DNA of 61,448 nucleotides. It comes from Promineifilum sp. GTDB lineage: Bacteria > Chloroflexota > Anaerolineae > Promineifilales > Promineifilaceae. A model generated the notes under the pieces. It saw only the letters and a program-made list of their open reading frames with translations. It made no database searches and was not told the origin of the DNA. Location: the NCBI GenBank assembly GCA_018058545.1, contig JAGOZU010000010.1, forward strand, positions 1 through 61,448, read 5' to 3'. The position numbers and the translations under genes were made by a program. Shown piece by piece: positions 3,697 to 20,044 of this stretch. Each line of letters starts with the position of its first letter. Within the stretch, counting starts at the first letter, position 1.

Positions 3697-4596
3697 TTAC
3701 TTGGCCAAATCTTCGATATTGATGCCCGCGCGGCTCAGGTCGGCGCGGAATACATCATAGAACGAGTCGCTGGACTCAACCAGGCTCTCGATATTGTAAA
3801 GCGTGTTGAGTGCTTCCTGCCCTTCGGGCGAAGCGGAGATATCGAGCAGGGCGGCGACGACTTTGGTGCGCATCTCTGCCGGGAAGTCCTTGATGAAGGA
3901 CACGCTGTCGTTGGGGATGTCGCTGGTGGTGGCCAGGACGACGACCTTCTCCAGCACATCGGGGAACTCTTCCTCGATGCCGGTACGAGCATCGGAGAAC
4001 GTCGCGCCCGCGTCGCAATCGCCATTGTAGACTTGCGTCACAACGTTGTTGTGCGACCCGGCCTCGATGGTCTGGCTGAAGTCCGTATCGGGATTGATAC
4101 CGTTGGCGGACAGCATGATGCGCGGGATGATATAACCGGAGGTCGAGGCGGGATCGACCCAGCACATGACCTTGCCGCGCAGATCTTCAAGCGTCGCAAT
4201 GCCGCTGTCAGCGCGGACGATGATCTGGCCGGCATAGGTGCTCGACCCGAAACGGGACGTCGCCAGCGCGGCATCGACGCCGCACTGCTCGTTGGCCAGC
4301 ACGTAGTTGAACGTGTTCAGCCAGCCGATTTGAGCCTGACCGGCGCACATCGCCTCGCGAACGGACGAGAAGTCCGTGCCGACGTTGGATTTAACGGTGA
4401 GGCCGGTGCGGTCGGTGATCATTTTCGCCAGGGTGTCGCCGCTGGCGATGATGTCCTGCGTGTCGCCCGAGGGCACAAAGGACATGATGATGGGATTCTC
4501 GGCCGTGCCCAAGTCGGGTTTGCCGCCACAGGCGGCCAGAGCCAGGCCAAGCAAGGATACCATCCCAAACAGCAAAACAATCTTACGGACGTTCAT
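3697..4596 (-). CDS. phnD: Phosphonate-type ABC transporter substrate-binding lipoprotein
   Basis: A 299-residue PhnD-family binding protein delivering ligand to PhnCE. It has a lipoprotein signal with lipobox ending at C23 (LALAAC), then the PhnD-like start of the mature domain (IIMSFVPSGD) and later WVDPASTSGYIIPRIML, a characteristic PhnD hinge and ligand-loop segment. An in-frame longer reading exists to 4641, but the ATG at 4596 has a strong GGAGGAGG ribosome site nine bases upstream, so this start is preferred. It is the first gene of the phnDCE operon and has its own promoter and a leader of about 100 bases containing a terminator hairpin (separate entries). Confidence 0.92.
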   Translation of the reverse strand: MNVRKIVLLFGMVSLLGLALAACGGKPDLGTAENPIIMSFVPSGDTQDIIASGDTLAKMITDRTGLTVKSNVGTDFSSVREAMCAGQAQIGWLNTFNYVLANEQCGVDAALATSRFGSSTYAGQIIVRADSGIATLEDLRGKVMCWVDPASTSGYIIPRIMLSANGINPDTDFSQTIEAGSHNNVVTQVYNGDCDAGATFSDARTGIEEEFPDVLEKVVVLATTSDIPNDSVSFIKDFPAEMRTKVVAALLDISASPEGQEALNTLYNIESLVESSDSFYDVFRADLSRAGINIEDLAK

Positions 4597-4639
4597 TCTT
4601 GAAAACCTCCTCCACATGAATGGGTTGGAAAGGGACATC

Positions 4640-4660
4640 AAAAAAGGCGCTTGCGCCTTT
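4640..4660 (-). terminator. Intrinsic terminator inside the phnD leader
   Basis: On the minus strand AAAGGCG-CAAG-CGCCTTT is followed directly by further T residues (six in a row). It lies between the phnD promoter (4703-4731) and the phnD start codon (4596), so it can act as an attenuator as well as the terminator of the upstream phosphatase gene. Confidence 0.6.
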
Positions 4661-4668
4661 ACGTCTTG

Positions 4669-4695
4669 CGCGAGGGCGTTCCTCGCGACACGAGG
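4669..4695 (-). promoter_or_regulatory. Mutually exclusive stems in the phnD leader
   Basis: Read on the minus strand the leader starts with CCTCG, then CGCGAGG, then CCTCGCG. The middle segment can pair with the first (5 bp) or with the third (7 bp, loop AACGC) but not both. This lies directly before the terminator hairpin, an arrangement expected for a switch or attenuator. No known riboswitch consensus was recognised. The pairing is seen; the function is inferred. Confidence 0.35.
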
Positions 4696-4702
4696 CGACT
4701 AT

Positions 4703-4731
4703 ATAATAAATCTGTCAAATCAGTTTGCCAA
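4703..4731 (-). promoter_or_regulatory. Promoter of the phnDCE operon
   Basis: On the minus strand a -35 box TTGGCA (4731-4726) is separated by 17 bases from a -10 box TATTAT (4708-4703), placing the start near 4696, about 100 bases before phnD. The same -35 hexamer and spacing recur in front of the tRNA-Leu gene. Confidence 0.65.
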
Positions 4732-4772
4732 CTAATTAGCCGGTCAAAAGTGAAATTTGCTTCTACTCCGGT

Positions 4773-5396
4773 TCAACCGTTGTGCCAGGGCACGCGATAC
4801 CGGAACCCGACGAGGCCCCCGCTATCCCCCTCGGCAAAAGTGAAGGTGGCGATGGACGCCGGAGAGGGGTAGCCTTCGGGCACGCCACACTGAACCAGGC
4901 GCTTGCGCTGCTCGGCCGACGGAGCGAGGCCACAAGCCCACATAATGGCAAAGGCGATCGGGTCGGCGTGACTGACGCCGACGACATGCCCGCCGGGATG
5001 ACGCTCGCGCGCCCGATCGAAAAAGCGGATGATGCGATCCAGTATCTGTTCCGGCTGTTCGTAGGGCGGGTCGACGGTGCTGTAGAAATCCCAGTTGCGC
5101 CCCTCCATCTCCGCGGCCGTGCGGCCGTCATAGGATGAGTGGATCTCGTTCAGGAGATCGCAACTCTGTAGCGGCGTATCGGCGGGCAGGTAAGCGCAGA
5201 TGATCCCGGCCGTCTCGGCCGCGCGCTGCATCGGGCTGTGATACACAGCATCGACCGGCTCCAGTGCCAGGGCCCGTCCGGCGGCCGCCGCCTGCTCGCG
5301 ACCCGTCTCGGCCAACCCGAAGCCGGGCAGGCGTCCATAATAGACGCCATCGGGATTGTGAACCAATCCGTGGCGTACCAGCGATATTTTGGTCAT
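4773..5396 (-). CDS. Histidine phosphatase family protein (phosphoglycerate-mutase-like)
   Basis: A 207-residue member of histidine phosphatase branch 1. The phospho-accepting RHG motif is at R8-H9-G10, a conserved acidic segment is LLNEIHSS, and the second catalytic histidine is in VGVSHADPI. Such enzymes remove phosphate from small metabolites (sugar phosphates, nucleotides, cobalamin intermediates); the actual substrate cannot be read from sequence. The ATG at 5396 is preferred over a TTG two codons upstream. It lies between the response regulator and phnD on the same strand, which fits a link to phosphate metabolism but does not prove one. Confidence 0.8.
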   Translation of the reverse strand: MTKISLVRHGLVHNPDGVYYGRLPGFGLAETGREQAAAAGRALALEPVDAVYHSPMQRAAETAGIICAYLPADTPLQSCDLLNEIHSSYDGRTAAEMEGRNWDFYSTVDPPYEQPEQILDRIIRFFDRARERHPGGHVVGVSHADPIAFAIMWACGLAPSAEQRKRLVQCGVPEGYPSPASIATFTFAEGDSGGLVGFRYRVPWHNG

Positions 5397-5428
5397 AGGC
5401 AAACTATCCTGTATTTTGACCGACGATA

Positions 5429-6115
5429 TTACGCTTCACGCAGGCTCAGCTTGTAGCCGCGACCCCAGACCGTCTCGATTTCCACCCCGCTACCGTCCAG
5501 CCGATCGCGCAACTGAGCCACGTGAACATCGACCGTGCGCGTCTGCCCGTGGTATTCATAGCCCCAGGCCAGATCGAGCAACTGATCGCGCGAGAGGACC
5601 TGGTTGGGATGATCGGCCAGCGCCAGCAGCAGGTCGAACTCTCTGGCCCGCAGGGTGATGGGCGCGCCGTCGACGGCCACCTCGCGGGCGGCCGGGTCGA
5701 TGGTGAGGCGACCGATGTGGCGCTGTCGGTCCTGGCCGGAGCGGCCGCCGCCGCCGGCTCGCCTCAGGATGGCCCGCACCCGCGCCACCAGTTCGCGCGG
5801 GTTGAAGGGCTTGGTGAGGTAGTCGTCGGCCCCCATCTCCAGGGCGACGATTTTGTCGATATCCTGGTCACGGGCGGTCAGGATAAGGATCGGCAGGTCG
5901 CTGCGGGCGCGCAGCCGCCGGCAGACCTCCCAGCCGTCCATCTCCGGCATCATGAGGTCGAGGACGAGCAGGGCGGGCGAGTCACTCTCCGCCTGGGCCA
6001 GCGCCTCCGCCCCGTTCACGGCCATGCGCACCTGGAAGCCCTCTTTCTCCAGATAGAGCCGGGCCAAGTCGCGGATGCTGGCCTCGTCGTCGGCCACGAG
6101 AATGGTATCAGCCAT
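5429..6115 (-). CDS. OmpR/PhoB-family response regulator
   Basis: 228 residues: receiver domain (1-118) with acidic pocket D9/D10, phospho-acceptor D53 in LVLDLMMPEMDGW, T80 in ILILTARD and K102 in YLTKPF; a Gly/Arg-rich linker (RRAGGGGRSGQDRQ); and a C-terminal winged-helix DNA-binding domain (about 130-228) ending VWGRGYKLS. It is expected to be phosphorylated by a histidine kinase and to bind promoters. No kinase gene is adjacent. The nearest candidate is the truncated gene at the left edge, on the far side of phnDCE. The downstream phosphatase starts 32 bases after its stop. Confidence 0.93.
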   Translation of the reverse strand: MADTILVADDEASIRDLARLYLEKEGFQVRMAVNGAEALAQAESDSPALLVLDLMMPEMDGWEVCRRLRARSDLPILILTARDQDIDKIVALEMGADDYLTKPFNPRELVARVRAILRRAGGGGRSGQDRQRHIGRLTIDPAAREVAVDGAPITLRAREFDLLLALADHPNQVLSRDQLLDLAWGYEYHGQTRTVDVHVAQLRDRLDGSGVEIETVWGRGYKLSLREA

Positions 6116-6142
6116 GGGAGAAGAAAAACGGCGGGTTCGACG

Positions 6143-6523
6143 CTACGGCATGGTGGCCACGCATTCGATCTCCACCAGCACGTTTCTGGGCAGCGCGGCC
6201 GCCTCGACGGTGGTGCGAGCCGGGAAAGGTTCGGTGAAGTGACGGGCGTAGACGGCGTTCATGGCCGCGAAATCGCCCATGCTCTGCAGAAAGACGGTCG
6301 TCTTGACGACGTGGGCCATATCCGTGCCGGCGGCTTCCAGAATGGCACGCAGGTTGCTGAATACCTGCTCGGTTTGCGAGGTGATATCCTCGCCCGCCGG
6401 CTCACCCGCGGGGGTGTAGCCCATCTGCCCGGCCGTGAATACAAAATCGCCGACGCGAATACCTTGTGAGTAGGGGCCGATGGCCGCCGGGGCGTTGTCC
6501 GTATGAATCCGATGCTTGTCCAT
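6143..6523 (-). CDS. ridA: RidA family (YjgF/YER057c) enamine/imine deaminase
   Basis: 126 residues, the normal family length. RidA hydrolyses reactive enamine/imine intermediates released by PLP enzymes such as threonine dehydratase, in the cytosol. Key features are IGPYSQ (15-20), GQMG (32-35) and PARTTVEAAALPR (101-113), with the conserved carboxylate-binding arginine R103 and C-terminal VEIECVA. The ATG at 6523 has AAGGA just upstream. It lies between the zinc-ribbon trio and the response regulator on the same strand, with short gaps, so co-transcription is possible but no functional link is evident. Confidence 0.9.
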   Translation of the reverse strand: MDKHRIHTDNAPAAIGPYSQGIRVGDFVFTAGQMGYTPAGEPAGEDITSQTEQVFSNLRAILEAAGTDMAHVVKTTVFLQSMGDFAAMNAVYARHFTEPFPARTTVEAAALPRNVLVEIECVATMP

Positions 6524-6547
6524 ATAGTTCCTTTTTCCTCGTGTGCC

Positions 6548-7132
6548 TTACGGCTTCTTCAATAATAGTTGCGGGCCTTCAGCCGTCTGTTCGGCCGGCA
6601 ACAGCCAAAGCTCCTCGCTTTCGAGTCGCAGATCGAAATCCAGCGTCTCTATCCAGTCGCTGCGTTTGGCCTCGATGGAGACGATGACCAGCTCCAACAG
6701 CTTGCGGCCGTCCTCGGGCGACACGACGACCGGCTCGAATGTCGCCCCTTCCGGCGGGGCGATCTCCTCCAGCGGCGGCTGCGTTTGCACCAGCTTCGCG
6801 ATCAGGTCGCGCGCCTGGGGCAACCCGACGCTCCAGGCCGGGACATACATCCGGCGCGGCAGATCCCAAAACGCTCGGGCCTCTCTCTCCGTCGAGCGAC
6901 CTTCCTGCGTTTTGCGCTGGTTAATCGTCACCCGGCCGCGATAGACCCGGAAAGGCAGCCAGCTTGCCACCTCCTCCACCGACGAGGCCGCGTATTGCAC
7001 CGCCGGTAAATCCAGCCCCCCTTCCTGGATGCCCACGGCCGCGCGACAGTTGGGGCACTGGACGACCTGATCCTCCTGGCCCGGTGCGAGCGCGGTATTG
7101 CATTTGGGGCAGCGCAGCAGCATCAGTTTCAT
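6548..7132 (-). CDS. Small zinc-ribbon protein, third of a trio
   Basis: A 194-residue protein of unknown function. The N-terminus is a four-cysteine zinc ribbon (C8, C11, C26, C29: CPKC...CPNC). The rest is soluble, with YVPAWSVGL followed by an acidic C-terminal part. The ATG at 7132 is chosen because it follows the preceding stop by a few bases and gives the ribbon directly; a longer reading to 7174 would overlap the neighbour. No membrane segment is predicted, unlike its two upstream neighbours, with which it shares the ribbon and a P-[aromatic/W] motif. It may be the soluble partner of a membrane complex; this is inference. Confidence 0.75.
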   Translation of the reverse strand: MKLMLLRCPKCNTALAPGQEDQVVQCPNCRAAVGIQEGGLDLPAVQYAASSVEEVASWLPFRVYRGRVTINQRKTQEGRSTEREARAFWDLPRRMYVPAWSVGLPQARDLIAKLVQTQPPLEEIAPPEGATFEPVVVSPEDGRKLLELVIVSIEAKRSDWIETLDFDLRLESEELWLLPAEQTAEGPQLLLKKP

Positions 7133-7136
7133 GGCA

Positions 7137-8279
7137 TCATTCGTCCTGGTCGGAGGAAGTGTCCAGGTCCTCAATTTCTTTCATCAAAGCTTTGCCCGTC
7201 TCGAACATCTTCGACAAGCCCGCGGACGTCGGCAGCAGATTGCCCATCACCCCCCGGCTGGAACCGGTAGCCGCTTTCTGGAACTCCTTCGGCTTGTCCT
7301 CTACCTCCTCACCGTAGCGGAACTGCTTGTAGCCCCAGACGATGAGGGCGATGCCCACGGCGATGGGCAGGAAAACGATGTAAAACCCGTCATCGCTGTC
7401 GGAGACGGCAAGGGCGGTCAGGATGGTCCCGTTCACCAGAACAAAATTACCGGTAGCCAGGCCGGACACCAGAGCCGCGGCGCGATAGAGGATATTGCCC
7501 GGCGCCTTGCCATACATCACCCCGCCGTTGACGCCGTTGATGACCACCTGATAGACCCGGTTGCGGTAGGTATAGCGCGCCAGCCAGACGGGGTAATAGA
7601 CCAGCGAGAACTCCGGCCGCAATAGCTGGATGTTTTCGTAAGTCGTGCGGGTCTGGTTGGCCTGGGCGCGGCTGCGATAGAGGAAGTGGCCGCGGGCTTC
7701 TTCCAGCGCCTCGGTCCGCGATTCCGACGGCTCGAAGACCATTCCCTCGGCGTGCATGGCCTGGCTGTCGAATGGCTGGAGGTCACTTTGCGAGACGACG
7801 ATCTGGTGGACGCCGAATTCGGCCACATCGACGGCCGCATCGGTCCAGTGCATCGACTCGAACACGTAATGCTCGTCCGGTTTGGTCTCGTCCTTGTCCT
7901 TGCGCACGCGGCCGAACAGCCAGCCGGCCACCGTGGACTCGACGCGCCAGAAAGGCAGATAGACCAGCAGCACCTCGTCGAACCGGGCAGCGCGGCTCAG
8001 ATCGCCGGCCTTGCGCATGCCCTTCAGGAAACCGCGCGCGCTCTTGAGCGCAGCCTCGCGGTCGATGCGCCGGGGCACATGCCAGCGGCGAATGCCGCGC
8101 TCCCCCTGCACCAGTGAATGCAGATTGCAGTAGGGGCACTGCACGACGCGCACCCCCTCGGACACCGGCACGACGCCGGCGCAATTGGGGCAGACCAGGC
8201 CTTGAGCCTTTTCCCGGGGCAGCGTCGGCGAGGCGGCGGCCGCCGGGACAACGGGGTTGGGTGGGAGAGAGGTGGTCAT
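7137..8279 (-). CDS. Zinc-ribbon membrane protein, second of a trio
   Basis: 380 residues, function unknown. It has a Pro-rich start, then a zinc ribbon (C30, C33, C48, C51: CPNC...CPYC), a long soluble region with two aromatic-proline strands (YLPFWRVE and YYPVWLARYTYRNRVYQ), then two hydrophobic segments near the C-terminus (ILYRAAALVSGLATG and GFYIVFLPIAVGIALIVWG) and an acidic tail. The segment after YYPVW resembles the matching region of the upstream neighbour (VPIYTFKYQYKGVTY), suggesting a common fold presented on the cytosolic face. It begins 5 bases after the upstream stop, so the three genes form an operon. Confidence 0.75.
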   Translation of the reverse strand: MTTSLPPNPVVPAAAASPTLPREKAQGLVCPNCAGVVPVSEGVRVVQCPYCNLHSLVQGERGIRRWHVPRRIDREAALKSARGFLKGMRKAGDLSRAARFDEVLLVYLPFWRVESTVAGWLFGRVRKDKDETKPDEHYVFESMHWTDAAVDVAEFGVHQIVVSQSDLQPFDSQAMHAEGMVFEPSESRTEALEEARGHFLYRSRAQANQTRTTYENIQLLRPEFSLVYYPVWLARYTYRNRVYQVVINGVNGGVMYGKAPGNILYRAAALVSGLATGNFVLVNGTILTALAVSDSDDGFYIVFLPIAVGIALIVWGYKQFRYGEEVEDKPKEFQKAATGSSRGVMGNLLPTSAGLSKMFETGKALMKEIEDLDTSSDQDE

Positions 8280-9237: not shown

Positions 9238-9795
9238 ATGATCGATGTCAATCAGCTGCGCCGCGGGGTCACTTTCAACCACGACGGCGCTTTATTGAAA
9301 GTAACCGAATATTCCCACACCAAACCCGGCCGCGGCAAGGCCACCATCCGGGTCAAGGTTCGCGACATGCGCACCGGCACCAACAAGGAAGTCACCTTCA
9401 ACTCCGGCGACCGCGTCGATGATGTGCGCCTGGACAAGAGCGCCTACCAGTACATCTATGACGACGGCACGTTCTACGTCTTCATGGACCTGAGCACCTA
9501 CGAGCAAAGGAGCGTCGCCCACAGCGTGCTGGAGAGCGACGCCAAATTCCTGCGCGATAACATGGAACTCGAGCTGCTGTCCTACGAGGGCGAGGTGATC
9601 GACTACGAGCTGCCCAAGACGATGGAGTTCGAGGTCGTCGAGGCGGAGAACGCCGTCGCCGGCGACACGGCCACCGGCGCGACCAAGGAAATCATCACCG
9701 AAACCGGTCTGCGGGTGAAGACGCCGCTGTTCGTCCAGGTGGGCGACCGCATCCGCGTCAACACCGAGACGGGCGAGTACCAGACCCGGCTCTAG
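9238..9795 (+). CDS. efp: Translation elongation factor P
   Basis: 185 residues, standard EF-P length. It binds between the P and E sites of stalled ribosomes and promotes peptide-bond formation at polyproline. Domain I starts MIDVNQLRRG; the tip loop is HTKPGRGKA, so the residue at the modification position is arginine (R32) rather than lysine. The C-terminal OB-fold domain ends in GLRVKTPLFVQVGDRIRVNTETGEY, the EF-P signature. The ATG at 9238 is chosen over an upstream in-frame reading because it gives the canonical N-terminus and follows AGGAG. Proline-rich proteins in the window (LysM, LCP) fit a need for EF-P. Confidence 0.97.
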   Translation: MIDVNQLRRGVTFNHDGALLKVTEYSHTKPGRGKATIRVKVRDMRTGTNKEVTFNSGDRVDDVRLDKSAYQYIYDDGTFYVFMDLSTYEQRSVAHSVLESDAKFLRDNMELELLSYEGEVIDYELPKTMEFEVVEAENAVAGDTATGATKEIITETGLRVKTPLFVQVGDRIRVNTETGEYQTRL

Positions 9796-9935
9796 ACTCG
9801 TCCACAGCTGTCATGCTCGGCCGCGAACGCGACGGGAACGATATCCGATCGCCGCGATGAGCGGCGACGGGCACAGAATCGGAGCAAGCCGGGAGATTTG
9901 GCGGGCATTGTAATCACTAGTGGTTGGAGGATGAG

Positions 9936-10415
9936 ATGAATAGTGAGCTTGTTCGTGGCAAATTGTCCGGTCGCCTGGTCGCGTTGGCGGCCCTGATGTT
10001 GGTCATGCTGTTTCTGGCGGCGGCCAGACCGGCCGAAGCCCAGGGGGGCGGCGTTTTCCATATCGTGCAGCGCGGGGAGTATTTGTCGCTCATCGCCCGG
10101 CAGTACGGCACGACGACGCAGGCTATTCTGGCAGCCAACCCGCAGATTACGAACGCGAATCTGATCTTCGCCGGGCAGACGATCTTCGTGCCCTTCGGGA
10201 CGCAACCGCCGCCGGTGACACCCGTGCCCACGCCTGTGCCCACGCCTGTGCCGCCACCCTCATCGGCCTGTCGCTGGCAGCATCTCGTGGTGCCTGGAGA
10301 TACGCTGCTGAAGATCGGCCGTCTGTATGGCGTGGACCCGTTTGTCATCGCCCGGGCCAATAATATCTTCAATCTGAATCTGATCTTCGCCGGCTCGACG
10401 CTTTGCATCCCGTAG
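9936..10415 (+). CDS. Secreted protein with two LysM domains
   Basis: 159 residues. Signal peptide (1-35, ending PAEAQ), LysM 1 (about 42-88, FHIVQRGEYLSLIARQYG...IFVP), a short Pro/Thr linker made of repeated TPVP units, and LysM 2 (about 116-159, HLVVPGDTLLKIGRLYG...LCIP). LysM modules bind N-acetylglucosamine polymers such as peptidoglycan. There is no catalytic domain, so it is probably a cell-wall-associated binding protein. The ATG at 9936 is preferred, with GGAGG five bases upstream; the TTG at 9924 is an alternative. A strong terminator follows (10468-10538). Confidence 0.88.
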   Translation: MNSELVRGKLSGRLVALAALMLVMLFLAAARPAEAQGGGVFHIVQRGEYLSLIARQYGTTTQAILAANPQITNANLIFAGQTIFVPFGTQPPPVTPVPTPVPTPVPPPSSACRWQHLVVPGDTLLKIGRLYGVDPFVIARANNIFNLNLIFAGSTLCIP

Positions 10416-10467
10416 CGCGGGCTGTTTGCACGCAAACCAATTAATGCGGTCGGGTATATAGAGGTAG

Positions 10468-10538
10468 GGGCGAGGCAGCGGCGTATTCATCACCGCTCTG
10501 CAGAACCACCCTTATTCGCCGTTGCCTCGCCCTTTTTT
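10468..10538 (+). terminator. Strong intrinsic terminator after the LysM gene
   Basis: Inverted repeat of 16 bp with one G-T wobble (10468-10483 with 10517-10532; arms begin GGGCGAGGCA and end TGCCTCGCCC), loop of 33 bases, followed by six T residues (10533-10538). Confidence 0.8.
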
Positions 10539-10606
10539 CAGAAGGGTCAGGTAGTCGGGAAGGGACGCCGCGCGTTTCCGTGGAGATGGTTGCCCGGTTG
10601 CAGGAG

Positions 10607-10660
10607 CACAACCTGACAGGTTGTGCCACAGGGATCACAACCTGAAAGGTTGTGCCACAG
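10607..10660. repeat. Tandem pair of palindromic intergenic repeats
   Basis: Two 25-base copies (10607-10631 and 10636-10660) differing at one base and separated by four bases. Each contains an inverted repeat CACAACCT-GAC/GAA-AGGTTGTG followed by CCACAG. Part of the unit (GACAGGTTGTG) recurs at 16695-16705, within the hairpin before the lasso precursor. This looks like a small interspersed palindromic (REP-like) element; two copies are too few to call an array. Confidence 0.6.
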
Positions 10661-10949
10661 GTTTGTTGGGCCTATTTATCTTTTCTCTGAGTATTTCCGC
10701 CGCATTTCTTCTGCCTCAAAATACGTAGATCCAATCGAATATCTGGTGACTTTTTCAATGATCGCGGGCGTGAAAGCCGCGTGAAACATCACGATCCCTA
10801 TTGACTATGATCCCGGTTGACTATATGCTTTTTAATAGCGGTTGATGGATCGACACGCGATGTCGTCGACCCATTTCGGTCCTTCTTGCCAGAGTGTCGG
10901 CTGATACAGACCAACAACAGATTAACAAAAGACGGGTTCAGGCCCTTTG

Positions 10950-11120
10950 TGGATGGAGACCGGGCTGGACCGCCAGGGTGATCAGCATTTAAATGCCCGG
11001 TTTCATGGTCTATGGGTTGTCGCGCCTGCCGGCGTTTGTTCACACGCCACCGTTTCGGCCGCGGCGGGTTCGCCATGCCGCCGGGAACGTCATCATTCCA
11101 CTGTTCCTTTATATGAGTCG
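10950..11120 (+). promoter_or_regulatory. Hairpin-rich leader of the giant secreted-protein gene
   Basis: Several nested inverted repeats precede the gene: ACCGGGC...GCCCGGT enclosing CTGG-accg-CCAG and the palindrome GCATTTAAATGC, then GGCGT...ACGCC and GGCGG...CCGCC. None matches a riboswitch consensus known to me (c-di-GMP-I, c-di-AMP, cobalamin and TPP were considered). It could be a structured 5' leader; in GC-rich DNA some of this may be chance. Confidence 0.25.
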
Positions 11121-11149
11121 GGAGCCAATGGAGAGGAGGAATTAACTCC

Positions 11150-14100
11150 ATGAATCACAATCGTCGAATTAATCAGATCAGACTCGCATCACTGCGTGCC
11201 GGGCAAATTGCCGCCGTCATCCTGCTCCTGTTCGTCGGCCTGGTCGGCACCGCCTCGGCCGCCCGAACCCTGAACTGGTTCAACTGGATAGACTTGAACC
11301 CGGGCCAGCAGACCCCCACCTCGACCGTCACGGTCACAGAGGGCCAGGCCTTCCCGATCTGGGTGAATGTCACACTGACCGATAATTCTGATTGGCAATG
11401 TACTCGCTTCAATTTCACCGGCGGGCCGACGCCTCTCAATACTACAAATAACAGTCCCAATTACATCAACAATAACGGCACGCACTCCCATAACCACGCG
11501 GTAACCGCCCCGGCGACCGCGGGTACCTACGACTTGACCGTGACTATATACAGGAACGACGACTGCACCGGCGGCGCGACCTCGGCGACCAAGACCAGCG
11601 CGGTGCAGGTCATCGTCGCGCCGACCCCAATTACCCCCCTTCCGCCGGTGATGCAGACCTATTTCGTCTCCGAGCCGGAGGATGACCAGTGGAAGGCCTA
11701 CGATGCAATCATGTCGGGTTCGCCGTCGAACAACATCCGCACCCACATCGGCATCACCATCGGCTTCGCGGGCACGGTGCTCTACTATGACCAGTGGGAG
11801 AACGGCTTCGACGCCGACATCACCGACCCGACAAATATCTGGAGCGCCGGCAACCCCGGCGGCACCCAGATCTGGGGCGACGGCGATCCGTCCAATGGCG
11901 CAGCCCCCGGCTTCCCCGCAGATACTTTCGCCGCCGGCGATGTGGTGATTCTGCAGAACATGGTGCCGGGCAACCCGCGCGGGACGGGCATCTACTTCGA
12001 CGGGCGCGACAAGATCGGCGCCTCGCAGCCCATCGCCGTCACGCGCCTGGGCTGGGCCGAGTCCACTCCCGGGTCGCTGCTGGCCTACGCCAACGCCATG
12101 TTCCCTGTCTCCGAATGGGGCACCGCGTACACCGTGCCCACCGGCTGCAACACAACTACGTCCACCGCAAACTTCGAATACTCGGCCCTGACGTTCATCG
12201 CCGCCTACGACAACACGACGGTCGACATCGACGCCGACGGCAACGGAACCTGGGAGACGACCGTGACGCTGAACCAGGGGCAGCATTATCTCGCGGCGAC
12301 GAACCCCGACGCCGCCAACGGCTGCGATTATATCCGCCAGGGAGCCAAGATCCGCTCCACCGACCCGACCAAACCGATCCAGGTGCAGCTGCTGACCGGC
12401 GACATCGGCTCCAACTACGCCGGGCGCGACCTGAACCTGGTGCCCGACGCGGACCTGGGCTACGATTACCTCGTTCCGGTCGGTGCCGTCTACGGCAATG
12501 GGACGCGCCTCTTCCTCTTCAACCCCGAGGCTAATCCCCTCTACGTTCGTTGCGAGGTCGGCACCACGCCAATTGTTACCAATCTGACCATCGCTTCCGG
12601 CGCATTGGATACATCGGTCGTTCTCGGAAACGATCAGGCCGCTCACTGCTACGCCGTCACGGCGGCGGGCGGGTCGACACCTGACCCAACCCGCCACTTC
12701 ACCGGCATGGCCGTCGTCGACGACGCTAACTCAGCCTATGACTGGGCCGTGCCCCTCATGCCGGCCAACATCCTGTCCAACATGGCCATCGTCGGCATCG
12801 GCTTCGGGCGCGATCCGTTCTCGTCCACAAACCCGAACGAGAACGGCAGCCCGCTGTGGGTGACGCCCCACTGCACCCCCCACGGCACCGGATCCACCTG
12901 GTTCTATGTCGACTGGAACAACGACGGCACGCCGGATCTGGTCGATTTCAACGGTGACGGTGACGCGCTCGACACCAACGTCAATGGCCTGAACGAAACC
13001 ACCTCCAATAACGGCTTCCAGGTGACCAACGGCCAATCGGTGCGCCTCTTCCGGCCGGGCACCCCGCCCAATCAGACCGGCGCCTACATCTACACCAAGA
13101 CGTCCTCGGGTAATCCCGACCCCGACGCCGGCGGCTGCGTGTTCGCCGCCGCCTGGGGCGAGGATCCGCGCACCGCGTCCGCCGCCCAACCCGGCATGGA
13201 CCTGGGCACGATCATCATCCCGCTGCGCGGCGAGCAGATCGCCAAGACCTCGACGTTGGTTGATGATAACGATGGCGACGGCAAACCCGGCCCCGGCGAC
13301 ACGCTGAGATTCACGATTTCCATCACAAACATCGGTTTCGCGCCGATCGCGGTCAGCGTCTACGACACCATCCCGACCTACACGACCTATGTCGCCGGCT
13401 CGACGTTCAAATTCACTCCCGGGCCAAGCGGTACACAGATTCCCGACCAGCCGGGTTCGGGCGATGCCGCGTTCCCGCTGGCGGTCAACTCGCCGATCGG
13501 CGTCCCCCTCGGCAGCCTGCCCAGTGGCGAGACCTGGGAGGTGGAGTTCGACGTCACCCTGGACCCGCCACAACCGGGCCAGGGCGATTACGACGAGATC
13601 ACCAACTGCGCGCTGGTCACCACCGACGGTACCAAAAACGAGACGTGTGATATCGAGGAGATCGTTCCGCCGCTGATACTGGAGCTGCAAAAGACGGCTG
13701 ACCCGATGGATCTGGCCCCCAACGAGAACGTGACCTATACCATCCGGTACTGGAACGTGAGGCAGGAGCCGTTCACCGACCTCGCCACGCATCTCACCGT
13801 GACCGATCCGCTCAGCACCGACCTGATATTCATCAGCGCCACCCCGACCGGAGCCGGATCGTGCACCCATGACGGCGCCGCCTACGGCGGCCTGATCAAC
13901 TGCACCGGCCTGCCCGATCTGGCCCCGGCAACGCCGCCGGCCACGCCTTACGGCACGATCACCGTGGTGGCCAAGGTGCGGAATACACCCGACACGCAGA
14001 CGCCCGGCCACCAGATCCCCAACACGGCGACGGTCTGTGGCGTGGGCGCCACCCGGCCACCGAATTGGCCGAATGATCCTAACTTCTATGTCTGCGACAA

Positions 14101-16675
14101 TGACACGGTGATCATCACAACCCCGGTCACGGTCGACTTCTTCAGCGCCACCGAGACGGCCGGCGGCGTGCGCTTCGACTGGACGACGGCGACCGAGACG
14201 GCCAACGCCGGCTTCAACCTTTATGCGCGCACCCCTGACGGGGGGGTGGTGAAGCTCCACGACGCGCTCATCCTGTCGTCCGTCATGGACTCCAGCTCAC
14301 CGACCGACTACAGCGTCACCCTCAGCGGCGTCCCGTCCGGTCAATACTTCATCGAGGACGTCTCCCTGTTCGGCGAGACCCGCGCCCATGCGGCGATCGA
14401 CCTCAACAGCGCCAGCGGCGAGCGGACGGCGCCCGAAGCTATCGACTGGACGGCGATCAATGCCGAGAACACAGCCCTGGAACAGGCGCGAGCGGCGGCC
14501 GCGGCCGAATCGCAAATCGTCGCTCCCCAAACCGCCGGCCCGCAAGCCGAACCCCTCAACGGCGGCGCGGCCACCGACGGCGCAACTACCGGTTCCGAGG
14601 CATCCGCCGCCCGTCGATCGGCTTATCCGTCGCTCGACCTGCGCCTGAGCGAGACGGGCGTCTACCGTCTGACCTACGAGCAGATCAAGGCCGCGGGCGT
14701 CGACCTGCGCGGCGTCTCCCGCCGCGACCTGGCCCTCACCAACCGCGGCGAATCGGTTCCTCTCTACGTCTCCCGGGCTAGATTCGGCCCCGGCGCCTTC
14801 ATCGAGTTCATCGGCCAGGGGCTGGACACGCTCTACACCGACACCAACGTCTACCGGCTGGTGGTCAATTGCGCCATGGCCAGCCGCGTCACGGCCGTGC
14901 AGGCCCGGCCGTCGCCCAGCGCGACCGTCGCCCCCTACTACATGGAGACGGTGCGGGTCGAGAACAACAAGGCGTACTCCTATCTCTCACCCAACGGCGA
15001 CCCGTGGTACGACTACTTCCTGGCAGCCACGCCGGGCAGACCGGCTTCGAAGTCGGCGACCGTCGCCCTCAGCGACCCGGTCGCTCAGGACGCCGCCGGC
15101 AACCCGCTGAGCGCCACCGTCACCTACGACATATGGGGCAGTTCGGAGAGGATCGCCGGGAATGATCACCACGCGACGCTCACGGCCAACGGCCAACTGA
15201 TCGCCGATCAATGGTTCGACGGCAACACGGCCGTCGCCCTGAGCGGTCAACTGACCAACTTCGGCGACAGCGTCGCCCTGACGCTTAAGGCTCCCGGCGA
15301 CCATAGCGGCGTGGGCGGCGTAGCCAACTTCGCTGACGTGTTCACGGTCGAAGCCTGGAGCGTCACCTATCCACGCGCCTTCCGCGCTGTGGACGGCCGG
15401 CTGGATTTCGAGGCCAGTGCCGATGCGCTCGCCTTCAAGGTGACGGGCCTCGACAGCGACCAGGTCGTGATCTATCGTCTCAATGGCGGTCGCCCGGCAC
15501 GGCTCAACGGGGTCAAGGTCACTGCCGACGGCAACGGGGCGTACAGCGCCAGTTTCGCCGGTGGCAAGAATGACACCTACTTCGTTTCAACGGTCGGCGC
15601 CCTGCGGACGCCCGGTATCTCGCTGACCCCGGCGGCGGCCGATATCAACGGCGGCACGGCCGACCTGCTGATCATCGCCCATCCCAACTTCATCAACGGC
15701 GACCTCGACCGGCTGGTCCAGGCCCGCCAGGCCCAGGGCTACACGGTGAAGGTCGTCGATGTGACCCAGATCTACCGCCAGTACAGCGGCGGCATCTTCG
15801 ACGCCCAGGCTGTTCGCGACTACGTGGACCACGCCATCCAGTCGATGGGCGTCCAGTACGTCCTGCTGGTCGGTGGCGACACGCGCGATTACCGCAACTA
15901 CAGCGGCACGGGCAGCATCAGCTTCGTTCCGTCGCTCTATGCCGCCACGATTGACTGGGTGAAGTTCGCCCCCGTCGACCCGCTCTACACTGACGTCGAC
16001 GGCGACAACGTGCCCAACCGGCCCATCGGCCGCTTCCCCGTGCGCTCTGTCGCCGACCTGCAGCTGATGGTCGACAAGACGTTGATCTACGATGCCGGTG
16101 TCTCCGTGGAGACGGCCGTCTTCGCCGCCGATCGCGGCTTCGAGTACGACGGCAACAGTTTCGCCGCCGCCCTGAGCGACTGGTCCGTCCAGACGGCCTA
16201 TCCCAAGCTGCTGGGCAACGCCTCGGCGCGAACGACCCTCATCAATGGATTGAACGCCGGGCCGCGTCTGGCCGCCTTCGTCGGCCACTCCGGTCCCAAC
16301 GCCTGGATCTCAACCTCGTTCTTTAGCGTAAAAGACGCGCAGGCGCTGACCAATGTCAATCCGATGTTCATCGCCCAATGGGGCTGCTGGAATACCTACT
16401 ACATCGACCCGGCGTACAACACACTGGGCGATCGCTTCCTGTTGTCGGGCATGAGCGGCGCGGCGCTGGTCTCCGGAGCCACCACGCTGACCAGCAGCAG
16501 CTCCGAGCTTGCCTTGGGCGAGTTGTTCATGGCGCAGGTCGTCCAGCCCGGCATCACGATCGGCCGGGCGATGCAGACGGCAAAGTCGGAGTTGGCCAAC
16601 ACCAACCCCGGTTTGACCGATGTCCAGCTCGGTTGGACAATCCTGGGCGACCCAACGGCGGTGGTCCAGCGCTAA
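11150..16675 (+). CDS. Giant secreted multidomain protein with C-terminal C25 (gingipain-like) peptidase
   Basis: 1841 residues starting at ATG 11150 with AGGAGG upstream. Signal peptide (1-38, ...GTASAA). An N-terminal beta-rich region (about 170-600) resembles IgGFc-binding-type adhesin domains (TYFVSEPEDDQW; YDQWENGFDADI). Two DUF11-like stalk domains begin near 690 (QIAKTSTLVDDNDGDGK...GPGDTLRFTISITN) and 843 (LELQKTADPMD); a fibronectin-like segment begins near 995. The C-terminal peptidase C25 domain (about 1500-1841) has candidate catalytic His1713 (VGHSG) and Cys1746 (WGCWN), 33 residues apart as in gingipain R (H211/C244). There is no C-terminal sorting signal, so it is presumably released or wall-associated. 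It ends 93 bases before the lasso precursor on the same strand. Confidence 0.85.
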   Translation: MNHNRRINQIRLASLRAGQIAAVILLLFVGLVGTASAARTLNWFNWIDLNPGQQTPTSTVTVTEGQAFPIWVNVTLTDNSDWQCTRFNFTGGPTPLNTTNNSPNYINNNGTHSHNHAVTAPATAGTYDLTVTIYRNDDCTGGATSATKTSAVQVIVAPTPITPLPPVMQTYFVSEPEDDQWKAYDAIMSGSPSNNIRTHIGITIGFAGTVLYYDQWENGFDADITDPTNIWSAGNPGGTQIWGDGDPSNGAAPGFPADTFAAGDVVILQNMVPGNPRGTGIYFDGRDKIGASQPIAVTRLGWAESTPGSLLAYANAMFPVSEWGTAYTVPTGCNTTTSTANFEYSALTFIAAYDNTTVDIDADGNGTWETTVTLNQGQHYLAATNPDAANGCDYIRQGAKIRSTDPTKPIQVQLLTGDIGSNYAGRDLNLVPDADLGYDYLVPVGAVYGNGTRLFLFNPEANPLYVRCEVGTTPIVTNLTIASGALDTSVVLGNDQAAHCYAVTAAGGSTPDPTRHFTGMAVVDDANSAYDWAVPLMPANILSNMAIVGIGFGRDPFSSTNPNENGSPLWVTPHCTPHGTGSTWFYVDWNNDGTPDLVDFNGDGDALDTNVNGLNETTSNNGFQVTNGQSVRLFRPGTPPNQTGAYIYTKTSSGNPDPDAGGCVFAAAWGEDPRTASAAQPGMDLGTIIIPLRGEQIAKTSTLVDDNDGDGKPGPGDTLRFTISITNIGFAPIAVSVYDTIPTYTTYVAGSTFKFTPGPSGTQIPDQPGSGDAAFPLAVNSPIGVPLGSLPSGETWEVEFDVTLDPPQPGQGDYDEITNCALVTTDGTKNETCDIEEIVPPLILELQKTADPMDLAPNENVTYTIRYWNVRQEPFTDLATHLTVTDPLSTDLIFISATPTGAGSCTHDGAAYGGLINCTGLPDLAPATPPATPYGTITVVAKVRNTPDTQTPGHQIPNTATVCGVGATRPPNWPNDPNFYVCDNDTVIITTPVTVDFFSATETAGGVRFDWTTATETANAGFNLYARTPDGGVVKLHDALILSSVMDSSSPTDYSVTLSGVPSGQYFIEDVSLFGETRAHAAIDLNSASGERTAPEAIDWTAINAENTALEQARAAAAAESQIVAPQTAGPQAEPLNGGAATDGATTGSEASAARRSAYPSLDLRLSETGVYRLTYEQIKAAGVDLRGVSRRDLALTNRGESVPLYVSRARFGPGAFIEFIGQGLDTLYTDTNVYRLVVNCAMASRVTAVQARPSPSATVAPYYMETVRVENNKAYSYLSPNGDPWYDYFLAATPGRPASKSATVALSDPVAQDAAGNPLSATVTYDIWGSSERIAGNDHHATLTANGQLIADQWFDGNTAVALSGQLTNFGDSVALTLKAPGDHSGVGGVANFADVFTVEAWSVTYPRAFRAVDGRLDFEASADALAFKVTGLDSDQVVIYRLNGGRPARLNGVKVTADGNGAYSASFAGGKNDTYFVSTVGALRTPGISLTPAAADINGGTADLLIIAHPNFINGDLDRLVQARQAQGYTVKVVDVTQIYRQYSGGIFDAQAVRDYVDHAIQSMGVQYVLLVGGDTRDYRNYSGTGSISFVPSLYAATIDWVKFAPVDPLYTDVDGDNVPNRPIGRFPVRSVADLQLMVDKTLIYDAGVSVETAVFAADRGFEYDGNSFAAALSDWSVQTAYPKLLGNASARTTLINGLNAGPRLAAFVGHSGPNAWISTSFFSVKDAQALTNVNPMFIAQWGCWNTYYIDPAYNTLGDRFLLSGMSGAALVSGATTLTSSSSELALGELFMAQVVQPGITIGRAMQTAKSELANTNPGLTDVQLGWTILGDPTAVVQR

Positions 16676-16768: not shown

Positions 16769-16948
16769 ATGACTCAAGAACTTAAGACTCTCTTGCCGGC
16801 CGAGCCGGGCGTGCGAATGAAGAACAAACGGCCCTATCGGAAACCGCTCCTCACCCGCTTCGGCGAAATCCGCACCCAGACACTTTCACCCACGATTACC
16901 AATGAAATAGAGAGCGGAAAGGGAGCCCCATATAGAGATGATCTTTAG
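16769..16948 (+). CDS. Lasso peptide precursor (A)
   Basis: 59 residues. The leader carries the exact lasso recognition pattern YxxPxLxxxGxxxxxT: Y23, P26, L28, G32, T38. T38 sits at the usual penultimate leader position, so cleavage after L39 would release a 20-residue core starting S40 and ending L59. Acceptors at core positions 7 (E46) and 9 (E48) could close a 7- or 9-residue macrolactam with the Ser1 amine, leaving a tail of 11-13 residues containing GKGAPYRDDL. The ATG at 16769 follows CGGAGAAG; an internal ATG (M17) is an alternative. Downstream lie a lasso-type cyclase and a kinase. The product and its activity are unknown; the core assignment is inference. Confidence 0.85.
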   Translation: MTQELKTLLPAEPGVRMKNKRPYRKPLLTRFGEIRTQTLSPTITNEIESGKGAPYRDDL

Positions 16949-17054
16949 TAGGGCGACATATCCCGGCCTGGGGCCGGATTGGCCCGTTCAGCGTCGCAGC
17001 CGCGATCTGACCGTCAGAGCGGGCCGCCGGCGTTGAATGATGAACCATAAAGAT

Positions 17055-17090
17055 GGGCCGTTCCCGGGTTGTTCCGGGGGCGGCCATTTT
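17055..17090 (+). terminator. Terminator-like hairpin after the lasso precursor
   Basis: GGGCCG-tt-CCCGG...CCGGG-gg-CGGCC followed by ATTTTC. It could stop most transcripts after the precursor gene and so give more precursor than enzyme, as is common in RiPP loci. Confidence 0.55.
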
Positions 17091-17251
17091 CTGTGGCGCA
17101 AGTCCCATCCGGGTGAGACAGGGCGGCAGCTACGGGAATTTGCATCGAGAAGACCATTCGGCCGCCCCATCCGTCTTTATCCTCTTATAACCGAGAACTG
17201 AAGAACCCGGCCTCTTCAGCGCCGCTCATTTAACCACCGGCCCGGGCGAGG

Positions 17252-17257
17252 TATAAT
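17252..17257 (+). promoter_or_regulatory. -10 box directly before the lasso cyclase
   Basis: Perfect TATAAT with 12 bases before the ATG at 17270; no good -35 (TTTAAC at 17 bases is the best). The transcript would be leaderless or nearly so. Confidence 0.5.
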
Positions 17258-17269
17258 CATACGGTACCC

Positions 17270-19120
17270 ATGAGCGCCATTTTCGCCATCTTCAACCGCG
17301 ACGGCCGCCCGGTTCTGCCCGAGGAGTGGCAACCCATGCTGCACGTTCGCCCCGAGCGCGCCCCCGACGGCGTGCGCGCACTGGCCGACGGCCCCGTCGC
17401 CATCGCCCACGGGCTGTTCCGCCTCCTGCCCGAGGAAGCGCCCGGCGACCAGCCGCTGGCCGAGGATGCTCTGCTCCTGAGCGCCGACGTCCGGCTGGAC
17501 AACCGGCCGGAGTTGGCCTGCCTGCTTGACCTCGACTCCACCGCAGCGGCCGCCCCCGACGCCCGTTACCTCCTCTGGGCTTACCGCCGCTGGGGGACGC
17601 GCTGCCCCGAACATCTGCTGGGCGATTTCGCCTTCGTCCTGTGGGACGCGGCCGAGGGGCGCCTGTTCGCCGCCCGCGACCCGCTCGGCGCGTGCGACGT
17701 CTGCTATTACCGGGACGGCGCCCTGTGCGTTGTGGCCTCGGAGGCGTCCCACGTCCTGGCCCACTCGCGTGTCCCGCGACGGATCAACGACGATCGCCTG
17801 GCCGCCTACCTGGCCAACGTGGTAAACCGGCCCGAGGAGACCGTCCATCGCGACGTCTTCTTCCTGCCGCCGGCCCACGCCCTCAGCGTCACCGCCGACC
17901 GCTTTGAGCTGTGGCGCTACTGGGATGCCACCCCGGCCACCATCCGCTATCGCGACGAGCGAGAGTACGCCGTCCATTATCGCGAGCTGCTCGACACGGC
18001 CGTCCGTGACCGGTTGCGGGTCGTGGGGCCGGTCGGCGTCTCCCTCAGCGGCGGGCTGGACTCGCCCACGCTGGCCGCCCTGGCTGCGCCGTTGTTGCCT
18101 TCGCTGACCGGCCAGGCGCGGTTGAAGAGCTTCACCTACACCTTCGATGAGCACGCCAGCTGCGACGAGCGGACGTGGATCAGGCCGGTCGTCGAAAAGT
18201 ACGACATCGACCCGACCTGGGTCCCCTGTGACGATCGGTGGTCGTTCAGGGATCTGCCCGACTGGTCGACCTCGCCCGATTTCATTTTCTACGATCCCTA
18301 CGACCTCTTGCCGGCGGCGGTGCGCGCGGCGGCGGCCGGGGCGGGCGTGCGCGCCTTGCTGGCCGGCTACTTCGGCGATTCCCTCATGGGCGGCCAGCAT
18401 TACTGGGCGCTGGATATGGCGCGCGACGGGCGGCTCGGCATGCTTGCCCATTATTCCCTCGCTCACTGGGGCGGCTTCAAATGGCGCAACGCTTACTTCG
18501 AGTATGGCCTGCGACGATTAATCCCGCCGGCGGCCGCTGCCTTCTATCGATCCTTTCGGCCGCGCCAGGCCGAGACCGTCGCCCCCGGCATCCACCCCGA
18601 CCTCGTGGCCCGCACCGACGTCGCAACGCGGCTCTCCCCCGTGCCCCCTCCGGACAGGGCCTTCCCCGGTTTCCAGCAGCGGTACGGCAGCCTTACCGGC
18701 AGTAACTTCAGCCAGTCCGTCGTCGTCCGCCACCAGTACAATCAGGCCGGCATGGAGCTGCTGCAGCCCTACTACGACCGGCGGCTGGTGGAGTATGTCC
18801 TGGCGATCCCCGCCTATGTGCTGGGACGGCCGGGCGATTTCCGCCACCTGCACCGCGCGGCGATGGCCGGCCTGCTGCCGGAGGAGGTCCGCCTGCGACA
18901 GAAGCGCACCACGTTCGAGCCGTTACTGAGGCAAGGGGTCGAACAGGAGATGGGGGTGATCCGGCAACTGCTGGCCGACCCGCTCGTCGTCGCTCGCGGC
19001 TATGTGCGCGGCGACTGGCTGGCGACCCAACTGGCCCAACCCTTCGATCAGACGGCCGGCTGGTCGCTGCTGTACAAGGCCGTCTTCCTCGAACTCTGGC
19101 TCCAGCGCTACTGGAATTAG
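17270..19120 (+). CDS. Asparagine-synthetase-like lasso peptide cyclase (C)
   Basis: 616 residues, asparagine synthase B fold. In lasso pathways this enzyme adenylates the side-chain Asp/Glu of the cleaved core and closes the macrolactam with the N-terminal amine. The N-terminal glutaminase-like domain (1-205) begins MSAIF, so the catalytic Cys2 needed for glutamine hydrolysis is absent (Ser), as in lasso cyclases. The synthetase domain has the PP-loop SGGLDS (260-265) and LLAGYFGDSLMGG downstream. The gene lies between the precursor and the kinase, with six bases to the latter. No ribosome site is visible; the start is immediately behind a TATAAT box. The alternative, a true asparagine synthetase, is disfavoured by the missing Cys2 and the context. 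Confidence 0.88.
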   Translation: MSAIFAIFNRDGRPVLPEEWQPMLHVRPERAPDGVRALADGPVAIAHGLFRLLPEEAPGDQPLAEDALLLSADVRLDNRPELACLLDLDSTAAAAPDARYLLWAYRRWGTRCPEHLLGDFAFVLWDAAEGRLFAARDPLGACDVCYYRDGALCVVASEASHVLAHSRVPRRINDDRLAAYLANVVNRPEETVHRDVFFLPPAHALSVTADRFELWRYWDATPATIRYRDEREYAVHYRELLDTAVRDRLRVVGPVGVSLSGGLDSPTLAALAAPLLPSLTGQARLKSFTYTFDEHASCDERTWIRPVVEKYDIDPTWVPCDDRWSFRDLPDWSTSPDFIFYDPYDLLPAAVRAAAAGAGVRALLAGYFGDSLMGGQHYWALDMARDGRLGMLAHYSLAHWGGFKWRNAYFEYGLRRLIPPAAAAFYRSFRPRQAETVAPGIHPDLVARTDVATRLSPVPPPDRAFPGFQQRYGSLTGSNFSQSVVVRHQYNQAGMELLQPYYDRRLVEYVLAIPAYVLGRPGDFRHLHRAAMAGLLPEEVRLRQKRTTFEPLLRQGVEQEMGVIRQLLADPLVVARGYVRGDWLATQLAQPFDQTAGWSLLYKAVFLELWLQRYWN

Positions 19121-19126
19121 CCTGCC

Positions 19127-20044
19127 ATGCCCCCCGCGCCCCCCATTGAACTCCTCTCTTTCCGGCCCGGCATCCCGCGCGCCTATCGCCTGGCCGGGGT
19201 CGATCTGCTGACTGACATCGACCTGCCGGTCCTGCAAACCTACCGGATCGACGGTCCCGCGGCCTGGTCGGCCGAGCGGGAAGCGCCGGACGACGACGGC
19301 GGGGAGCCGGTCTTCGACGGCCGGGGTCTGATCGTCGACGGGCAGCGGCGGGTCGTCTGCCTCGTCTCGGACGCGGGCTACCGGCTGGAGGTGGACGGCA
19401 TCGGCGCCTGGTGGATCGCGCCCGACGGCCGCCGGATCGTCGAAACGGCCGTCGATCCTCGCTGCGAGCCGGAGATACGGGCGATGGCTGCCCTCGGCGC
19501 GCCCCTTGTGCTGGCCCTCGCCCTGCGCGGCACGTTCTGCATCCACGCGAGCGCGGTCATCCATGGCGGCAAGACGGCGGCCTTCATCGGCGAATCGGGC
19601 GCCGGCAAGTCGACGCTGGCCCGCTATCTGGACCGCGAGGGCGGGCCGGATTGGCGGCGGCTCATCGACGATACGCTCCCCATCGCCCCGCCGGACCCCG
19701 ACGCGCCGGCTACCGCCCTGCCCCATTTCCCGCAACCGAAACTGCCCGACGCCATGCAACCTTCGCGATTGGGGCCGGAGCGGTTGCCGTTGAGCGCCAT
19801 CTACGTGCTGGAAAGCGACGGCGACGGGATCGCCATCGTTCCCCTGCGCCAGAGCGAAGCGACGCTGGCCCTGGCCGCGCAGACCGTCGGCAGCCGGCTG
19901 TTCGGCCGCGCCTTGCTGGCCGGCCACATCGATTTTTGCGTCGACCTGGCCGCCCGGGTCCCCGTTAAGCGGCTGATCTACCCGCGCGAGTTCGCTACCC
20001 TGCCTGCGGTTCAGGCGGCGCTGGCCGCCGACCTGGCGGATTAA
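19127..20044 (+). CDS. HPr-kinase-like protein of the lasso locus (K)
   Basis: 305 residues. The C-terminal half resembles the P-loop domain of HPr kinase/phosphorylase: FCIHASAVIHGGK (137-149) precedes Walker A GESGAGKS (155-162), and D181-D182 follow. The N-terminal 110 residues are a variable beta-rich region without the HPr-kinase N-domain. Homologues occur next to paeninodin-type lasso clusters, where they phosphorylate the precursor, and also in other RiPP loci. Here it directly follows the cyclase by six bases, so co-translation is likely. The target residue is uncertain because the precursor ends in Leu, not Ser. Confidence 0.8.
   Translation: MPPAPPIELLSFRPGIPRAYRLAGVDLLTDIDLPVLQTYRIDGPAAWSAEREAPDDDGGEPVFDGRGLIVDGQRRVVCLVSDAGYRLEVDGIGAWWIAPDGRRIVETAVDPRCEPEIRAMAALGAPLVLALALRGTFCIHASAVIHGGKTAAFIGESGAGKSTLARYLDREGGPDWRRLIDDTLPIAPPDPDAPATALPHFPQPKLPDAMQPSRLGPERLPLSAIYVLESDGDGIAIVPLRQSEATLALAAQTVGSRLFGRALLAGHIDFCVDLAARVPVKRLIYPREFATLPAVQAALAADLAD

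Follow-up and report, generated by a model that had tools for sequence, protein, structure and literature searches.

A lasso-peptide locus without local B1 and B2 genes adjoins a C25 protease gene in Promineifilum sp.

Genes and predicted product of the A-C-K locus

The 61,448 nt contig JAGOZU010000010.1 of Promineifilum sp. (assembly GCA_018058545.1) contains a lasso-peptide locus with genes for a precursor (A), a macrolactam cyclase (C) and an HPr-kinase-like protein (K), located 16.8 kb inside the contig and downstream of a gene for a secreted-type protein with a Peptidase_C25 domain. This whole stretch (the window) is one complete contig, C6, of a draft genome of 185 contigs that is 98% complete; G numbers denote genomes (G000 is the window genome, the others its relatives), C numbers contigs, and L numbers locus stretches. 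A first-pass annotation had described a reduced A-C-K locus lacking the B1 and B2 genes, and we find all three genes where it placed them; its overall reading stands only in part. The B1/B2 gap holds locally, and both genes are present elsewhere in the genome. We propose that the window probably carries the A-C-K half of a split, kinase-containing lasso pathway tied to the C25 gene, with an orphan B1-B2-nucleotidyltransferase (NT) operon on contig C127 acting in trans. The features in the window are as follows.

11150..16675, + strand: secreted-type protein, 1841 aa, with an N-terminal hydrophobic signal-like stretch, DUF11 and a C-terminal Peptidase_C25 domain
16769..16948, + strand: lasso precursor A, 59 aa, with leader to Leu39 and core SPTITNEIESGKGAPYRDDL (S40-L59), from the alignment of ten related precursors
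17056..17085, + strand: terminator-like hairpin of 13 pairs between A and C (consensus scan only; chance not excluded)
17230..17257, + strand: promoter-like site TTAACC-16-TATAAT ahead of C (consensus scan only)
17270..19120, + strand: lasso cyclase C, 616 aa, asparagine-synthetase-like (NF033535 E 1.5e-106; PF00733 E 3.3e-36)
19127..20044, + strand: HPr-kinase-like precursor kinase K, 305 aa (conserved motifs; structure model)

The leader pattern reported for precursor A is present in full (Y23, P26, L28, G32 and T38), and the strict form Y..P.[LIVMF]...G.....T has a single match in the six-frame translation of the window (0.13 expected under an order-1 Markov model), which stands ahead of a cyclase gene. 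Precursor A combines a YxxPxL leader and Thr at -2 with Asp/Glu within core positions 7-9. We aligned ten precursors of its cyclase group, and the ten related loci of this group are those of the window, G005 (two loci), G013, G017, G022, G400, G181, G345 and G395. The Tyr, Pro and Leu of the motif for the RiPP (ribosomally synthesized and post-translationally modified peptide) recognition element (RRE) are kept in 10/10, as are Thr at -2 and Leu at -1; core position 3 is Ser or Thr in every one, and all ten carry an acidic residue (Asp or Glu) at core position 8 or 9, directly before a Ser. The core had been thought to have no obvious known relative, but eight further Chloroflexota genomes encode relatives that share its leader and core signature. 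Two ring acceptors had been suggested, at core positions 7 and 9, and because of the [ED]-S pattern at 8/9 we retain E9 and discard E7. The predicted product is the 20-residue core SPTITNEIESGKGAPYRDDL with a nine-residue Ser1-Glu9 ring and a mass of 2144.04 Da. In G022 (L110:3805-5916) the cyclase frame continues without a stop into a lasso precursor (LPYQPPTLENLGDIRDVTLGGSPGTADSG...), an apparent fusion or lost stop codon.

Cyclase C is an asparagine-synthetase-like macrolactam cyclase with a PP-loop, and its best NCBIfam match is NF033535 ('lasso peptide isopeptide bond-forming cyclase'). It starts with MSAI and contains SGGLDS, in agreement with the earlier description of a cyclase lacking Cys2 but keeping the PP-loop. 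It is 55% and 40-43% identical to its relatives; a separate comparison with the two A-C-K loci of G005 gave 54% and 47%. In the cyclase tree the C25-linked cyclases form one group with weak support at its base (SH-like approximate likelihood ratio test 70), and the window cyclase lies inside a well supported subgroup of six (99); cyclases of G015, contig C127 and others were considered as members of the C25-linked group and rejected by the tree and their gene context. In the gap between A and C, the perfect TATAAT of the promoter-like site ends 12 bases before the cyclase start codon, and together with the terminator-like hairpin this suggests that A and C-K may be separately transcribed; the RNA fold of the gap (z -1.71) is not decisive.

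Kinase K begins 6 bp after C, as the first-pass annotation had it for an HPr-kinase-like gene. Sequence libraries recognise it only faintly, and its AlphaFold model (pLDDT, the predicted local distance difference test score, 87.5) has Foldseek matches to PEPCK and to HPrK/P 1kkl, so that the predicted fold resembles that of PEPCK/HPr kinase. His140, the P-loop GESGAGKST and Asp181-Asp182 are kept, and the complete H-G-G-G-K-S-D-D motif of BsfK can be read as H140, G155, G158, G160, K161, S162, D181 and D182. BsfK phosphorylates Ser3 of its core, accepts Thr, and is aided by B1 (PMC10368454). The alternative target, a C-terminal Ser as in the paeninodin rule, was rejected: such a Ser is present in 2/10 related precursors and absent in 8/10, and the window core ends in DDL. 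Since every precursor has Ser or Thr at core position 3, and given the BsfK precedent, we group K with the BsfK pattern and predict that it phosphorylates core Thr3.

No B1 or B2 profile match was found across the whole 61 kb window, and these genes are therefore not clustered with A and C. Such clustering is usual yet may be dispensable, since action in trans is possible. No ATP-binding cassette (ABC) exporter was found among the genes tested at 20-29 kb, which are all housekeeping or unrelated, and the window has a single ABC-ATPase signature, at 2835-3608. These results agree with the initial statement that no RRE, leader peptidase or ABC exporter lies nearby.

A conserved link to a C25 protease gene

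The gene for the C25 protein ends 93 bp upstream of precursor A. It was passed over in the first-pass annotation, and in our view no other feature of the locus is as informative. The Peptidase_C25 domain (PF01364, residues 1507-1837) is recognised with E 1.3e-55 and 189.6 bits against a cut-off of 23, the active-site motifs GHSG (His) and QWGCWNTY (Cys) are intact, and the nearest solved structures are PorU 6za2 and gingipain R. The N-terminal hydrophobic stretch, visible in the sequence, makes it a putative exported protein.

This is the only C25 gene in the window genome, and a C25 gene adjoins the lasso genes in nine of the ten related loci, from three taxonomic families (the window, both G005 loci, G013, G017, G022, G400, G181 and G345). 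All C25 genes are lasso-adjacent in the window genome (1), G005 (2), G181 (2), G345 (1) and G400 (1), and none was found in six same-genus genomes without the cyclase that were also scanned. Other genomes of the taxonomic family have C25 genes away from lasso loci, and no C25 gene lies beside other cyclase loci (0/23 loci of the class with 1.5 kb flanks and 0/62 further loci with flanks of up to 10 kb). A tree built from 48 C25 domains places those linked to lasso loci in one clade (100/100, stem 1.26) with 0/38 of the others inside it, and the sequence Q[WY]GC[WY]N.Y at the active-site Cys is present in 10/10 lasso-linked C25s and in 0/32 readable others.

The C25 gene could be a hitchhiker, its linkage inherited in one lineage without any joint function, and it is in keeping with this that C25 and cyclase apparently share one origin of their link, so that the adjacencies are not independent. 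It seems unlikely, as the link is kept at 34-55% cyclase identity and in three families whereas the B1-B2 adjacency did not last, the genus shows C25 and cyclase either both present or both missing, and the active-site signature is exclusive to this C25 clade. The C25 adjacency persists where that of B1-B2 does not. Because the A-C block is genetically tied to the upstream C25 gene, the peptide and the protease most likely serve one extracellular function, and both would be exported and act together. More tentatively, they may form a two-component extracellular system in which the lasso peptide is an inhibitor, a regulator or a processed or attached substrate of the adjacent C25 protease. Lys12 and Arg17 in the core tail were considered as gingipain-type cleavage sites; they are not kept in all relatives and were not used.

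Two further observations concern C25 genes in these genomes. In G181, direct repeats of 2460 bp that are 99.9% identical (L183:2540-4999 and 9271-11730) flank a lasso A-C pair and are copies of the C-terminal part of C25, and G013 has a similar repeat pair at 82%; recombination could delete or relocate such a repeat-flanked cassette, or else the repeat may be an artefact of assembly. Elsewhere (L145, L146, L147 and L149, in G013, G020 and G017), other C25 genes of the same taxonomic family stand beside cassettes of an HprK-like kinase, a PqqD/RRE protein and a radical S-adenosylmethionine (SAM)/SPASM enzyme, some of which add an archaeal-type signal peptidase. These cassettes resemble the SynChlorMet and LPP systems. 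In this group, C25 may repeatedly be associated with RiPP-like pathways.

B1 and B2 genes elsewhere in the genome

A profile search of the whole genome, the check that the first-pass annotation had called for, finds B1 (RRE) and B2 genes on contig C127 only, two of each. B1 and B2 are thus available at the level of the genome, and the earlier suggestion that they act in trans from elsewhere is supported by this search, by synteny and by trees. The relevant features of C127 are as follows.

C127 9672-9968, - strand: orphan operon B1 (PF05402)
C127 9233-9763, - strand: orphan operon B2 (PF13471), with Cys, His and Asp motifs kept
C127 8064-9236, - strand: orphan operon NT (PF14907)
C127 (L007) 10054-12123, - strand: InhA-like secreted-type protein upstream of orphan B1, with a MAM domain and HELRH
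C127 (L007) 4229-8063, + strand: second, complete lasso cluster B1-B2-C-A-K, with precursor ...YHKPELAVFGDVQELTANTFAWGSEEWFFLDVRTG

The complete cluster has an acyltransferase gene on one side and, convergent to it, the orphan B1-B2-NT operon on the other. In the same-genus genome G005, neither of the two A-C-K loci has B genes nearby, and there is one B1 and one B2 genome-wide, in a sole B1-B2-NT operon on a third contig. The orphan C127 operon is syntenic with it, with an InhA-like gene upstream (the G005 counterpart is L107:5804-7945, + strand, directly upstream of B1-B2-NT) and the same kinds of flanking genes. In the trees, the orphan NT and B1 are each sister to their G005 counterparts (100/99 and 94/91), and the nearest row to the orphan B2 is from G005. 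As the InhA-like gene is kept in both genomes, both halves of the pathway adjoin a peptidase-like gene.

In other relatives the genes are found together to varying degrees. G017 has the unbroken order C-A-K-B1-B2-NT and G345 has C25-C-A-K-B1-B2, in G013 about 14 kb separates the halves, which share a strand, and in G022 they are on different contigs. A single B2 gene is present in G181 for three lasso loci (L195, L184), and its C43 locus has B1 without B2. The split in G395 is probably an assembly break and is not counted, since contig C38 stops immediately behind K and contig C116 inside B1-B2. From the orthology and synteny with G005, the contiguous genes in relatives and the gene counts in G181, we conclude, on the strength of gene content, that the window precursor is probably processed in trans by B1-B2.

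The biochemistry that we infer would proceed as follows. K would phosphorylate core Thr3 with B1 assisting; B1 would bind the YxxPxL leader motif and present the leader to B2, which would cleave after Leu39; C would then activate Glu9 and close the nine-residue macrolactam to Ser1. NT may modify the phosphate group, for which PsmN offers a precedent (PMC9266682).

The B1-B2 pair of the complete cluster (C127:4229-4973) could instead serve both precursors, leaving the orphan B1-B2-NT redundant. The leaders of both precursors in the genome carry YxxPxL and both B1-B2 pairs look intact, as this would require. We nonetheless regard it as improbable, since the orphan set is orthologous to the sole set of G005, where A-C-K loci occur without other B genes; the cyclase and B1 of the complete cluster group in trees with Acidobacteriota clusters, and RREs can tell similar leaders apart (PMC13381572).

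A leader removal free of B2, with either the cyclase taking a leaderless core or another protease such as C25 cutting the leader, has some precedent in pseudomycoidin, as the title of Zyubko 2019, cited in PMC13381572, states that a leaderless core is accepted by the cyclase, and it would suit the lack of a local B2. It is very improbable, as precursor A keeps a full leader with the RRE motif and Thr at -2, every tested genome with the window-type cyclase group also has B2, and the C25 protein looks secreted, away from the cytoplasmic precursor.

Least probable is that the cluster is a decayed remnant without a product, for although local B1, B2 and exporter genes were not found and the cyclase scores below its curated cut-off, all frames are intact, the motifs of A, C, K and C25 are kept in ten related loci, with those of the ten precursors arguing in themselves against decay, and the B genes are present in the genome, whereas an absence of any B2 and of expression had been named as a sign of decay. 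With A-C-K well inside its contig and B1/B2 on C127, we likewise reject decay or a contig-edge effect as the reason for the missing local B genes.

Several points weigh against a split, C25-tied pathway with the orphan operon in trans. The split pathway is predicted here from its genes, its two halves are about 25 kb or more apart in a draft assembly, and with two B1-B2 pairs present the sequence cannot prove which serves precursor A. The NF033535 score of the cyclase, 357.5 bits, is below the curated cut-off of 525, as is also seen in divergent members. The search of the G013 lasso locus yielded no K, no peptide exporter was seen near the A-C-K locus, the single C25 gene of G395 is not lasso-adjacent, and the C25 adjacencies, being related by descent, do not count as independent trials.

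Relation to known systems and significance

Every enzyme of the peptide pathway is of a known kind, and taken together they resemble the bsf and pseudomycoidin clusters. In Bradymonas sediminis, the bsf cluster (BsfA-B1-B2-C-D-K-N) has A, C, K, B1, B2 and a nucleotidyltransferase in common with the system described here, as well as Ser/Thr at core position 3 and the H-G-G-G-K-S-D-D kinase motif (PMC10368454). It differs in that the A-C-K and B1-B2-N genes of the window system are in separate loci, with an adjacent C25 gene and no ABC exporter found, and in that residue -2 is Thr in the window precursor and Ile in BsfA (PMC10368454). The paeninodin and pseudomycoidin clusters likewise have an HprK-like kinase, a PF14907-type nucleotidyltransferase, a lasso cyclase and discrete B1/B2, but their kinases use a C-terminal Ser, in contrast to the DDL end of the window core, and the clusters are contiguous rather than split (PMC9266682).

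The SynChlorMet/LPP-type cassettes (TIGR04248/9; PMC13381572) also pair an HprK-like kinase with a discrete RRE. The window differs in encoding a macrolactam cyclase, and it lacks both a radical SAM enzyme and a leader peptidase of the signal-peptidase type. The C25 domain with its His and Cys catalytic dyad is shared with gingipain R and PorU (Peptidase family C25), from which the Chloroflexota C25s differ in their N-terminal regions, the Q[WY]GC[WY]N.Y sequence and the lasso linkage. In a literature mostly outside subscription journals we found no published link between lasso peptides and C25 or gingipains, the one co-mention being a reference-list entry, and nothing relevant on Chloroflexi lasso peptides, B genes in trans or separate loci. 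What appears to be new is the splitting of the pathway with its B genes shared and, most of all, the conserved association with C25.

Genome mining that requires B1 and B2 in the cluster will miss pathways in which leader processing acts in trans, and such trans-acting genes sometimes serve two or three precursors per genome. Few lasso peptides have a known natural role, and a conserved coupling to a protease provides a directly testable role, whether in inhibition, activation or processing. If the two-component reading is true, the role of this lasso peptide would be tied to one self-encoded protease.

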